Below are positions 6,157 through 12,776 of a DNA stretch of 64,000 bases, one piece after another (position 1 is the first letter of the stretch; every line of letters begins with the position of its first letter). This DNA is from a virus: positions 1-64,000 of IMG/VR virus record IMGVR_UViG_3300048672_000851; one strand, given 5' to 3'. The translations under genes were made by a program, and so were the position numbers. The notes beneath the pieces are model-generated. The model was given only the letters and a program-made list of their open reading frames with translations, was not told where the DNA came from and did no database searches.

Positions 6157-6186
6157 TACTGGTGCAGACGTCTAGGAGGAACCGAC

Positions 6187-6699
6187 ATGCATGATTTGAC
6201 TGGCGTAGGTTTGTTTGAAATTGATGTTGATGCTGTGTGCATCAGCACCAATGGCTTTGTTACCAGCAATGGTAACTGTGTGATGGGTCGTGGTTGTGCC
6301 TTTGAAGCAGCCAATCTATTTCCTGATGTACCACGCACGCTAGGAACCATGATACGCAATCATGGAAATATCGTGCAGGTAGTTAAGGTTATTGATGGAT
6401 GCAGCCTTGTGGCCTTTCCTGTAAAGCATACGAGTGGCATTTGCACTGGTGATAACGTTGTGAGCCATGCTCGATTTAAATATCCCAGAGGAACCACTGT
6501 GCCGGGCTTTCATTTGAAGGCCAGTATGAGCTTGATCATAAAGTCAGCCTTCGAGTTAAAGCAACTGGCTGATATGAAAGGCTGGAAGACTGTGGCATTG
6601 CCACGGGTAGGTTGTGGTGCAGGAGAGCTTGATTGGAATGCTGTGAAACCAGTATTGCAATCCATGCTAGATGACCGATTTATAGCCGTTACAAAATAA
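6187..6699 (+). CDS. Macro-domain protein (ADP-ribose binding or hydrolysis)
   Basis: I place the start at ATG 6187, seven bases after a perfect AGGAGG; the longer frame would translate the promoter hairpin. The 170-residue product has macro-domain marks: VDAVCISTNGFVTSNGN near the N-terminus, the GRGCAFEAA loop, and VALPRVGCGAGELDW near residues 138-152, which would hold ADP-ribose. Macro domains bind or remove ADP-ribose from proteins, nucleic acids or small signals. Made early, it may undo host ADP-ribosylation defence or clear a signalling molecule. Codon use is richer in G+C than the neighbours, suggesting separate acquisition. Confidence 0.85.
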   Translation: MHDLTGVGLFEIDVDAVCISTNGFVTSNGNCVMGRGCAFEAANLFPDVPRTLGTMIRNHGNIVQVVKVIDGCSLVAFPVKHTSGICTGDNVVSHARFKYPRGTTVPGFHLKASMSLIIKSAFELKQLADMKGWKTVALPRVGCGAGELDWNAVKPVLQSMLDDRFIAVTK

Positions 6700-8719: not shown

Positions 8720-8831
8720 CCTAAATGGACTCTAAAGGGGTATAGAAAAAAACCTAAATCCCAAGTCAAACAAAGATAGTGATTTGGCTAAATTCAACCC
8801 AAACACTAACAACTCCCATGAGGAACCCAAA

Positions 8832-9266
8832 ATGTTCGGATCATTCTTTAAAAAAGCTAACCGCACTATTGAAGCGGTAAAGAAATTTGAAAACAAAGAT
8901 CTGGTTGAAGCTACCGTTGCCAGTGCGTTACTGATTGCTGCTGCTGATGGCACTATCGAAGATGAAGAAGTTGCCAAGCTGCAAGAAATCATCGAAGCAT
9001 TACCAGCAATGCAAGGCCACCAAGCAGAAATCGGTAACATTGTTGACCGTTACACCAAACTGCTGAAAGCTGGCTTTATGCTGGGTAAAGTACAACTGAT
9101 GCGTGAAATCAAAGACTGCAAAGGCAGTGAACAAGAATGTGAAGACATTGTTGTTGTTGCACTGACTGTTGCAAGCGCTGATGGTGAAATGGAAGATGCT
9201 GAAGTAGCTGTTCTGAAAGACATCTGCAAAGCATTGAACGTATCTCCAAGCCAATTTGGTTTGTAA
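8832..9266 (+). CDS. TerB-like protein
   Basis: Start at ATG 8832 (MFGSFFKKANRT) after ATGAGGAACCCAAA; the upstream frame is not needed. The 144-residue helical protein has two tandem acidic repeats: VASALLIAAADGTIEDEEVAKLQ near residue 29-51 and VVALTVASADGEMEDAEVAVLK near residue 108-129. This ADGxIxxEE pattern is that of TerB/DUF533 domains, which bind metal ions and associate with stress and tellurite-resistance systems. Its job in phages is not known to me; it may interact with a host TerB/TerC-type stress or defence complex. Confidence 0.78.
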   Translation: MFGSFFKKANRTIEAVKKFENKDLVEATVASALLIAAADGTIEDEEVAKLQEIIEALPAMQGHQAEIGNIVDRYTKLLKAGFMLGKVQLMREIKDCKGSEQECEDIVVVALTVASADGEMEDAEVAVLKDICKALNVSPSQFGL

Positions 9267-9528: not shown

Positions 9529-9732
9529 ATGTTACACAAATTAGTAAATCGTGTTCTTAGCTTATTTGGATACTCACTAAAACCTTACACGTTTTATGAA
9601 GCTGGGTATTTAATAGAGGTGTTGCAAAGTATTCACAAACCTTGCAACGAATATCAACCTACATGCAGTGAAATGCCTTTTACTGCATCTGATATTGAAC
9701 TAATTACGCACGTTGTGGGGATGTGTAAGTAA
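9529..9732 (+). CDS. Small protein of unknown function, 67 residues
   Basis: Starts at ATG 9529 after AAAGGGAATACG. Soluble, with three cysteines (KPCNEYQPTCSEMP and a terminal MCK). No family recognised. It is the last gene before the 1.2-kb non-coding structured region. Confidence 0.65.
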   Translation: MLHKLVNRVLSLFGYSLKPYTFYEAGYLIEVLQSIHKPCNEYQPTCSEMPFTASDIELITHVVGMCK

Positions 9733-10176
9733 TTAGCTCTATTCCGAATTGAGCTAGGATAAGATAAAATTACGCCGCATTCTGCGTTTTATTGTTAGTT
9801 TCTTTTTGAACTAACAAGGGTAAGTGGAGACTAGTTCTCCACTAACTCCATTAAAAAGCTTATTAGTTAAGTTCCCATTTTCTCTTGGGTTCCTCAGCTT
9901 AGTTAGTAAGCTTTTTAATGGGGTTTGGTTTCTCCATATTAAAATGGTGTGCTAGTAAATAATGCTAATCCATGCTTTATCGTAAGATAAAGAAGCCGAA
10001 GCTTAGGGAATTTTCATTTATTCACTTAAGACGTTGAAAGGTCGGTAATAATTATTTACAGATTAAGATAGCTACCTCCTTGGTTATGCTTAATCCGTTG
10101 GTTACTACGCTAGTGTAACTAAACTGGATGTAGTGGTTGTGTTTATGGCTTGCAACTAGGGGTAAGCACAATCACT

Positions 10177-10314
10177 CAGTTTATTAGCTTGGTGTTTCGA
10201 CATTTTGATTAAATAAACGTATGTGCTCATAACTCATAAAGGTTGTTTAGTTAACTTGTTCCGCCAATACTGGTCGGTTATGGGTCTGGTAGAAACACCA
10301 AGACTAATGAGCTG
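10177..10314 (+). repeat. ncRNA module 1 (long stem)
   Basis: The 5' arm 10177-10198 pairs with 10292-10314 in 22 bp, including 11 perfect pairs (CTTGGTGTTTC with GAAACACCAAG), two wobbles and one bulge. The stem starts with AGTTTATT, as in modules 2 and 3. Confidence 0.7.
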
Positions 10315-10490
10315 GTAACTCAGAGTGGGTATTAAGGGAATCCCACAATTCGTCAATGTTTGCGATGATAGTTGCATTTAAATATAAATGCTAACGATGA
10401 TATGTTCCGCGCTGTAGCCTAAGAAACTACTCGCCCAAGATAGTAACTTGGTTTAAAAGATAACTCGAAGTCCATCGTTAACGGACACTT

Positions 10491-10572
10491 AGTTTATTGG
10501 TTTGGTGTTTGGTACCCGACGAAAAGTACACTCGTTGCGGTCGAAGCGGCCAGACACCAAAACCAATAAGCT
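10491..10572 (+). repeat. ncRNA module 2 (long stem)
   Basis: 5' arm 10491-10512 pairs with 10550-10572 in 22 bp with two wobbles and one bulged A. The base is AGTTTATT paired with AATAAGCT. Confidence 0.7.
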
Positions 10573-10654
10573 GATAGCTTAACCGAGCAAATGCTAGAGA
10601 TTATTCTGGCCAACGGTTGTAGGTGACGATGGGTGATATTGGAACCTTCATTTT

Positions 10655-10737
10655 AGTTTATTGAAGTTGGTTTATAGTTGTAAGAGACTTTGCGGCACCC
10701 TCTGCGTAAAAATCCTATAAATCAACTTCAATAAGCT
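10655..10737 (+). repeat. ncRNA module 3 (long stem)
   Basis: 5' arm 10655-10677 pairs with 10715-10737 in 23 continuous pairs with two wobbles. The base is AGTTTATT paired with AATAAGCT, but the distal stem sequence differs from modules 1 and 2. Confidence 0.72.
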
Positions 10738-10966
10738 GAAGGTACAAGTGGTGATTGTACGGAATTTACCTATCGTGTGTGATGAAGCGCCTGTGACCTT
10801 GGTGACAAGGGGATCAGTGACAGGTAGGCGGCCTATAAGCCGGGCAATAACGCCTTAATGTCGTCATCTGGAAAACTCGTAGAATGGCGGTTATATCGCT
10901 ACGAATGAAACACACAAGCCACATAAACTCACCAGTGGCCAGCTTATCTAATCAGAGAATCCAATC

Positions 10967-11272
10967 ATGCTTAATCCCTGTGGCCTTGATAAAGGCACTA
11001 TTAATTATCTACGTAAAATATCTCTATACGGAATGGATAACAGGTATTCAGACTACTTTCAAACAGAAGTAGTTAATTCAACAATTTGTAAGAATATCCA
11101 AATTGATGTTTTAAGAGATAAATCAAATCCTGATAAAATAGTTGTAGTTAAATTAGGTGTTAATTTTAAAGTTTATAAAATAGAACCCTATTTAATCTAT
11201 TCTGTTATAGATGAAATTTTAAAAGAATCCAATCATGGCGCAACTAAGCAAAAATCTTATCCATCAAGTTAA
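10967..11272 (+). CDS. Protein of unknown function, 101 residues
   Basis: ATG 10967 follows GAATCCAATC, and exactly the same leader precedes the next gene's ATG. The product has YGMDNRYSDYFQTEVVNST in the first half and an alternating beta-like stretch (KIVVVKLGVNFKVYKIEP) in the middle. No family recognised. It overlaps the next gene by 38 nt. First gene after the candidate giant RNA. Confidence 0.65.
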   Translation: MLNPCGLDKGTINYLRKISLYGMDNRYSDYFQTEVVNSTICKNIQIDVLRDKSNPDKIVVVKLGVNFKVYKIEPYLIYSVIDEILKESNHGATKQKSYPSS

Positions 11273-12701: not shown

Positions 12702-12776
12702 GCGCCTATAGTGTAATGGATAGCACACAATCCTTCTAAGTTTGGAGTAAAGGTTCGATTCCTTTTAGGCGTGCCA
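12702..12776 (+). tRNA. tRNA-Arg (anticodon UCU)
   Basis: A full cloverleaf of 75 nt with encoded CCA. Acceptor GCGCCTA pairs with TAGGCGT (one G-U), the D stem is GTGT/GCAC, the anticodon loop CTTCTAA places TCT at 34-36, and the T arm is AAAGG-TTCGATT-CCTTT. The anticodon stem CAATC/GTTTG has one T-T mismatch, so the gene may be somewhat degenerate. It would read AGA codons, which suit an AT-rich phage. Confidence 0.92.

Follow-up and report, generated by a model that had tools for sequence, protein, structure and literature searches.

tmRNA is the bacterial ribosome-rescue RNA, which writes a degradation tag onto unfinished proteins. Its ring follows the order PK1 - tag - H5 - PK2 - PK3, and known trans-translation requires an alanylated tRNA-like domain together with SmpB. 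We know of no description of a coding tag ring in GOLLD or ROOL. The various forms of tmRNA have been surveyed (PMC11915505), and two-piece tmRNAs occur in marine phages, including Melnitz (PMC9004378). As cited in PMC12286853, tRNA islands are found close to GOLLD and ROOL, and pull-downs show GOLLD bound to ribosomes.

The RNA described here lies in a window of 64,000 nucleotides, positions 1 to 64,000 of the 77-kb IMG/VR virus record IMGVR_UViG_3300048672_000851. GOLLD and ROOL are the closest to it in size and setting (near or above 1 kb, phage-encoded, ornate, with a tRNA-associated setting in many relatives; PMC12286853), but the window RNA matches neither Rfam model. With tmRNA (ssrA; RF00023, RF01849) it shares the succession PK1, resume codon GCN, a frame beginning AND, H5 around the stop, PK2 and PK3, as well as an SsrA-like tag. 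However, no tRNA-like domain or acceptor stem was found in the phage ring RNA, and the window scores only 14.1 bits with the tmRNA model, against a cut-off of 47 (19.5 against 47 with tmRNA_permuted). The permuted two-piece tmRNA (RF04321; Melnitz, PMC9004378) is likewise phage-borne and has its mRNA-like part as a separate segment, whereas the ring RNA has no upstream acceptor piece over the cut-off, and in its compact members the predicted transcript begins with the ring.

A long gene-free gap and its predicted fold

The last upstream open reading frame ends at 9732 and the next starts at 10967. Those within the gap reach at most 47 aa and include no credible gene, which bears out the initial annotation that none fits between 9733 and 10966. 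The predicted fold of the plus strand of 9735-10966 has an energy of -409.6 kcal/mol, which corresponds to a z of -10.0 relative to 100 dinucleotide-shuffled sequences (-319 +/- 9); at -333.9 kcal/mol the minus strand folds more weakly, and 9755-10950 gives a z of -15.9 (20 shuffles). These predictions support a strongly folded plus-strand RNA encoded by the gap, with the following features:

9755-10950, plus strand: predicted giant RNA as a whole; no open reading frame above 47 aa, fold z -10 to -16, 9757-9763 pairing with 10943-10949
9844-9925, plus strand: 5' long hairpin; z -7.0 for 9800-9930
10177-10314, plus strand: arm M1, a long helix CAGUUUAUUAG.../...CUAAUGAGCUG with an insert of ~90 nt; z -4.9
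10346-10486, plus strand: tmRNA-type mRNA-like ring; match to covariance model R1 at 10348-10496, covariation in the family, window pairs assigned by eye
10346-10350/10370-10374 and 10355-10358/10375-10378, plus strand: ring PK1, pairs by eye
10390-10422, plus strand: tag reading frame, GCT AAC GAT GAT ATG TTC CGC GCT GTA GCC TAA = ANDDMFRAVA*, ten residues
10409-10411/10432-10434 and 10414-10417/10427-10430, plus strand: ring H5, pairs by eye
10435-10439/10447-10451, plus strand: first stem of ring PK2, pairs by eye
10470-10473/10483-10486 and 10461-10464/10477-10480, plus strand: candidate ring PK3, pairs by eye
10489-10574, plus strand: arm M2, a long helix UUAGUUUAUUGG.../...CCAAUAAGCUGA; z -6.5
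10585-10650, plus strand: tRNA-linker motif, GAGCAAAU-hairpin-CAACGGUUGUAGGUGACGAUGGGUGAUAUUGGAACCUUCA; found in 55 IMG/VR stretches, match to model R2 of 71.9 bits
10652-10740, plus strand: arm M3, a long helix UUUAGUUUAUUGAAG.../...CUUCAAUAAGCUGAA; z -8.2
10741-10950, plus strand: 3' region with a GUGA hairpin and a possible GUGUGU/ACACAC closure; no energy support (z 0.04 for 10746-10950)

Several elements proposed in the initial annotation were recovered. The pairing of the two ends can be read directly from the sequence and is also present in the minimum-energy fold; the 15-bp arm placed at 9848/9921 belongs to the 5' hairpin; the GNRA-capped hairpins were found with GUAA (9982, 7 bp) and GUGA (10802, 5 bp) loops; and the stems given as 22-23 bp correspond to three stems of about 22-26 bp. 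The 3' multibranch domain was not upheld, the stability of 10746-10950 being that of shuffled sequences. Concerning the proximity to tRNAs, a tRNA exists, but it is a single tRNA-Arg at 12702, 1.7 kb away, so this point is weak.

A giant multi-hairpin RNA is therefore well supported as proposed. Of the two alternatives given for it, a GOLLD or ROOL or a new RNA, the first was not borne out: a scan of the whole Rfam library (cmscan) matched neither of these models, even at E up to 5, and tRNA is the only family that reaches its cut-off. The RNA is of another kind, with a modular build. Among rejected candidates, manA RNA scored 21.6 bits at 10190-10351 against a gathering threshold of 55.2, with a poor alignment, and a plant-miRNA match was sub-threshold; ARAGORN called no tmRNA in the window.

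The tmRNA-type ring and its tag frame

The initial annotation had missed the tmRNA-like tag frame at 10390-10422, which is more informative than any other feature of the RNA. Relaxed-threshold Rfam hits to tmRNA (10379-10434) and tmRNA_permuted (10272-10422) both point to this frame, and its resume codon is preceded by a UA-containing element (UAUAAAU-GCU...GCC-UAA). With R1, a covariance model trained on the cores of 41 phage loci (alignment A1) with the window and Salmonella phage SSU5 left out, the window ring scores 37.7 bits, at an E-value of 7e-10 in a search of 165 kb and of 3.4e-10 when the whole record is searched, and the SSU5 ring 70.9 bits, the best score on 459 kb of other viral contigs being 15.5 bits. 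Marine phage loci resembling ordinary tmRNAs score 15-30 bits, so that R1 alone cannot separate both kinds; these scores fit common descent. In the window ring, H5 and the first stem of PK2 are maintained by base pairs other than those of its relatives; the second stem of PK2 is weak and not convincing, and PK3 is short and weak.

Across the 41 cores, 27 pairs (second stem of PK1, H5, both stems of PK2 and both of PK3) are 94.5% paired, against at most 50% in slid registers; the pairs were read from the same 41 sequences and this control is biased in their favour, the stronger evidence being the double changes. Double-change cells in these pairs number 117 where 30.5 are expected, a value reached in none of 500 shuffles. 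The first stem of PK1 pairs in most members. The covariation supports the PK1-H5-PK2-PK3 arrangement in the ring family, as judged from aligned sequences. Covariation among homologues was thus recovered for the tag core, but none of the collections searched yielded homologues of the window arms or of the 3' region, and scans with arm and tag patterns for relatives returned coding-region matches or nothing.

Apart from a few exceptions, the tag in 72 loci follows the consensus A, N, D/E, D/E/N/Q, x, F/V/M/Y, L, A/M, V/A, A, stop. Synonymous alternatives occur at most positions, and TAA, TGA and TAG are all used as stops. The synonymous fraction is 0.207 in frame and 0.05-0.11 in the other frames, the in-frame value being reached by 17 of 1000 column permutations. 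This is moderate evidence that the tag evolves as a reading frame, a case strengthened by the exchange of stop codons. Taken together, we consider it very probable that the gap encodes a structured RNA with a tmRNA-type ring, whose centre is derived from the mRNA-like domain of tmRNA or closely mimics it.

Distribution among phages and a second module

BLAST links the tag spot of the window to phage SSU5, in which a gap without annotation contains the frame as ANEDTYLAVA*, and about 110 nt of this stretch recur, unannotated, in Klebsiella phages of 45 kb and about 157 kb. A 190-nt query from a Klebsiella prophage matched 759 INPHARED records. It also matched 690 of the 5426 complete E. coli genomes, where 591 of the 739 places lie on plasmids. 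Coverage of the query reaches 80% or more in 281 of these records and 136 of these genomes, the remainder being partial matches. The annotation beneath these matches is mostly 'none'. Carriers of the core include Felixounavirus, Ackermannviridae, siphoviral phages, P1, SSU5-like phage-plasmids, lambdoid prophages and G7C-like N4-likes, and, among Schitoviridae, IME11 and FSL SP-058. A scan of GTDB with one strict PK2 pattern, which is not a census, returned one Pantoea genome.

In the loci that we opened, the core sits in long gene-free gaps (2.1 kb in IME11, 1.7 kb in Se-J, 1.0 kb between Q and holin in an E. coli prophage) or in tRNA clusters, as in HY02, and in compact loci well below 1 kb the ring stands alone. 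R1 gives 190 bits for IME11, 186 for swi2, 134 for HY02 and 121 for P1, scores that are not independent, all four being among the 41 training rows. The P1 ring, whose predicted tag reads ...ANDDLMMVAA, is placed by R1 at 68889-69070 (AF234172). The annotated 'dicF-like region' of P1 (AF234172 68791-68892) ends right where this ring begins, but it covers mostly upstream sequence, and the ring itself is unannotated. Measured against Rfam 15, annotated records and the open literature, the tag-ring RNA appears to be an undescribed family, unreported by Rfam or gene finders in several hundred phage records; we found no description of a phage tmRNA ring lacking the tRNA domain in the open literature. 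Metagenomic, probably marine, contigs (L006, L007, L012, L022, L030, L044 and others) carry tmRNA-like segments with ANDE..ALAA tags; these are probably tmRNAs of the ordinary kind or in two pieces, as described in PMC9004378.

The arms differ between phages in the tag-core loci compared. Window arms M1, M2 and M3 have a common frame, AGUUUAUU...AAU(A/G)AGCUG, and an arm frame AAGRGCAUU-X-AGUGCUCUU, with an insert X of 28 to 146 nt, occurs near some cores, upstream or downstream. We also observed that such constant-frame arms hold very different inserts, some with perfect T-loops (L016, L032, L046, L048, L066, L187 and others), and that similar inserts are found on either side of the tag core, as if cassettes were exchanged.

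The motif at 10585-10650 is apparently a second undescribed RNA motif, found between the tRNA genes of phage tRNA arrays. Its consensus over the 55 IMG/VR stretches is GCAAAU - hairpin - CAAYGGUUGUARGUGACGAUGGG..AUMGGAACYUUCA, and it is also present in HU1 and XAJ2. In most of these stretches a tRNA lies at most 400 nt away, the next one commonly starting 41-48 nt past the first G of the motif, and one stem pair covaries (A-U, G-C, U-A). The R2 score of the window is not independent, as the window is among the 25 training rows. In the window, arms M2 and M3 occupy the places where tRNAs would stand around the linker. Copies were noted in L126-L180, with two copies in L146, L159, L166 and L174, and also in L002 (2970-3046) and L003 (2950-3043); apart from tRNAs, Rfam matches nothing in L002 and L003 at E up to 0.1. 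Across 49 tag loci nothing significant besides the window matches the linker (best other E 0.12), and in 55 linker loci the best ring score is 15.5 bits and was not counted.

Judged by its RNA polymerase 2, which is 41-44% identical to those of Vibrio phage VBP47 and Alteromonas phage PT15-A5, the phage is Schitoviridae-like (N4-like). Ring and linker are both missing from the RNA-polymerase relatives VBP47, PJN101 and PT15-A5 and from N4, and the one RNA-polymerase relative that the closest-relative search recovered from IMG/VR does not carry the RNA. Since the tested relatives lack both modules, the giant RNA looks like an accessory acquisition. As to neighbouring genes, a macro-domain gene lies 3.6 kb upstream of the window RNA (6160-6699), another directly adjoins the tag core of L057 (after 3340; by eye), and one is annotated as Appr-1-p processing in the Alteromonas relative (L266 1584-2057). 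A TerB-family gene (8784-9266) lies just upstream of the window RNA, and the TerB-like gene tciA of P1 (L184 3847-4272) lies downstream of the P1 ring and tRNAs.

Possible roles of the ring

We propose that the RNA contacts ribosomes via its ring and would feed into the host trans-translation pathway, presenting an alternative SsrA-type tag (AND[E/D]..LAVA or LMAA; RAVA in the window) as a template. The tRNA-like function would be provided in trans by a putative partner, the RNA may simultaneously divert the host tmRNA/SmpB system, and the arms and tRNA-linker motif could be a scaffold, processing sites or exchangeable cargo. We regard this statement as a whole, from the encoded ring RNA to the possible diversion, as evenly balanced; the use of the tag as template, in particular, falls somewhat short of an even chance. 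About as tentatively, many phage families may share a ring lacking the tRNA domain that loads its tag template in trans, in some of them within giant modular RNAs with exchangeable arms. Against this proposal stand the essential part that template use requires, the tRNA-like domain, which was not found; the weak second stem of PK2 and the short PK3 in the window; the only moderate permutation result for coding (17 of 1000); and the nearest polymerase relatives, which have no such RNA.

The same missing domain is what one would expect to see in a competitor. The ring could be a decoy that inhibits or redirects host trans-translation by occupying ribosomes, S1 or further partners of tmRNA in competition with the host molecule, the tag never being made, and the variation of arms between phages might reflect an arms race. 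However, the tag frame is kept as if translated, including synonymous and stop-codon exchange, and we consider a pure decoy rather unlikely.

Alternatively, the RNA could be one part of a split or permuted tmRNA, with the acceptor piece encoded in an arm or at another place in the phage genome and base-paired to the ring once the RNA has been processed. Marine phages do have two-piece tmRNAs (PMC9004378), T-loop hairpins are present in some arms, and several loci reach 19-33 bits with the permuted model. However, T-loop hairpins, present near some cores, are missing from most loci, and every tmRNA model stays sub-cut-off. Neither the 77-kb record nor the records of seven related phages contain a recognisable tRNA-like domain (acceptor stem with G3-U70, D-loop, T-arm, CCA), and RF00023 matches in them fall only on the core, tRNAs and short T-arm stretches, all sub-cut-off; RF04321 gave nothing over cut-off in six records and the window record, and a strict pattern of T-arm then CCACCA found nothing in eight records. 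Moreover, in compact members a predicted sigma-70 promoter (10-11/12) ends 8-13 nt upstream of UUUUCG, the first letters of the ring (Felix O1-like L182 and L233; L113, L186, L199, L205, L219). If these promoters are real, they abut the ring, so a 5' acceptor strand before it would be impossible in these loci. For the window RNA, no convincing sigma-70 promoter was found with the sigma-70 model, sites being no commoner than in shuffles. A split tmRNA is in our view distinctly unlikely. As separate observations, the one tmRNA call by ARAGORN in L186 (tag AKAVRLRKCSFRCGECAG) does not cover the tag of the ring and was set aside, and further T-loop tRNA-like sequences lie downstream of the ring RNA in phage IME11 (L181 2905-3105), with no ARAGORN call.

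Equally improbable is a GOLLD/ROOL-like scaffold or cage, in which the ring would be a ribosome-binding handle only, and arms and linker would carry cargo. Size, phage setting and large helices fit, as do the tRNA islands near GOLLD and ROOL and the GOLLD ribosome pull-down cited in PMC12286853, and the linker motif derives from tRNA arrays; against it are the absence of any Rfam match and the ring that stands alone in compact loci well under 1 kb. Finally, the RNA could be a remnant of mobile RNA genes that is decaying and no longer has a function. This would accord with the divergent window copy, the polymerase relatives without the RNA and the 3' region structured no better than chance, but it is very improbable given the strong folding of the arms, the intact tag frame, the different base pairs that keep H5 and the first stem of PK2, and the covariation across the family.

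Returning to the proposed entry of the ring into trans-translation, its coding tag provides a functional foothold within an otherwise unexplained giant phage RNA, and several hundred phage records, textbook phages included, appear to carry an unreported tmRNA-derived RNA. The link that it suggests between phages and ribosome rescue is testable in laboratory strains, for which ssrA, smpB, clpX and sspB mutants already exist. If such rings do load a tag template in trans, the template and tRNA functions of trans-translation would be separable, both acting in trans, and phages would be modifying the pathway.
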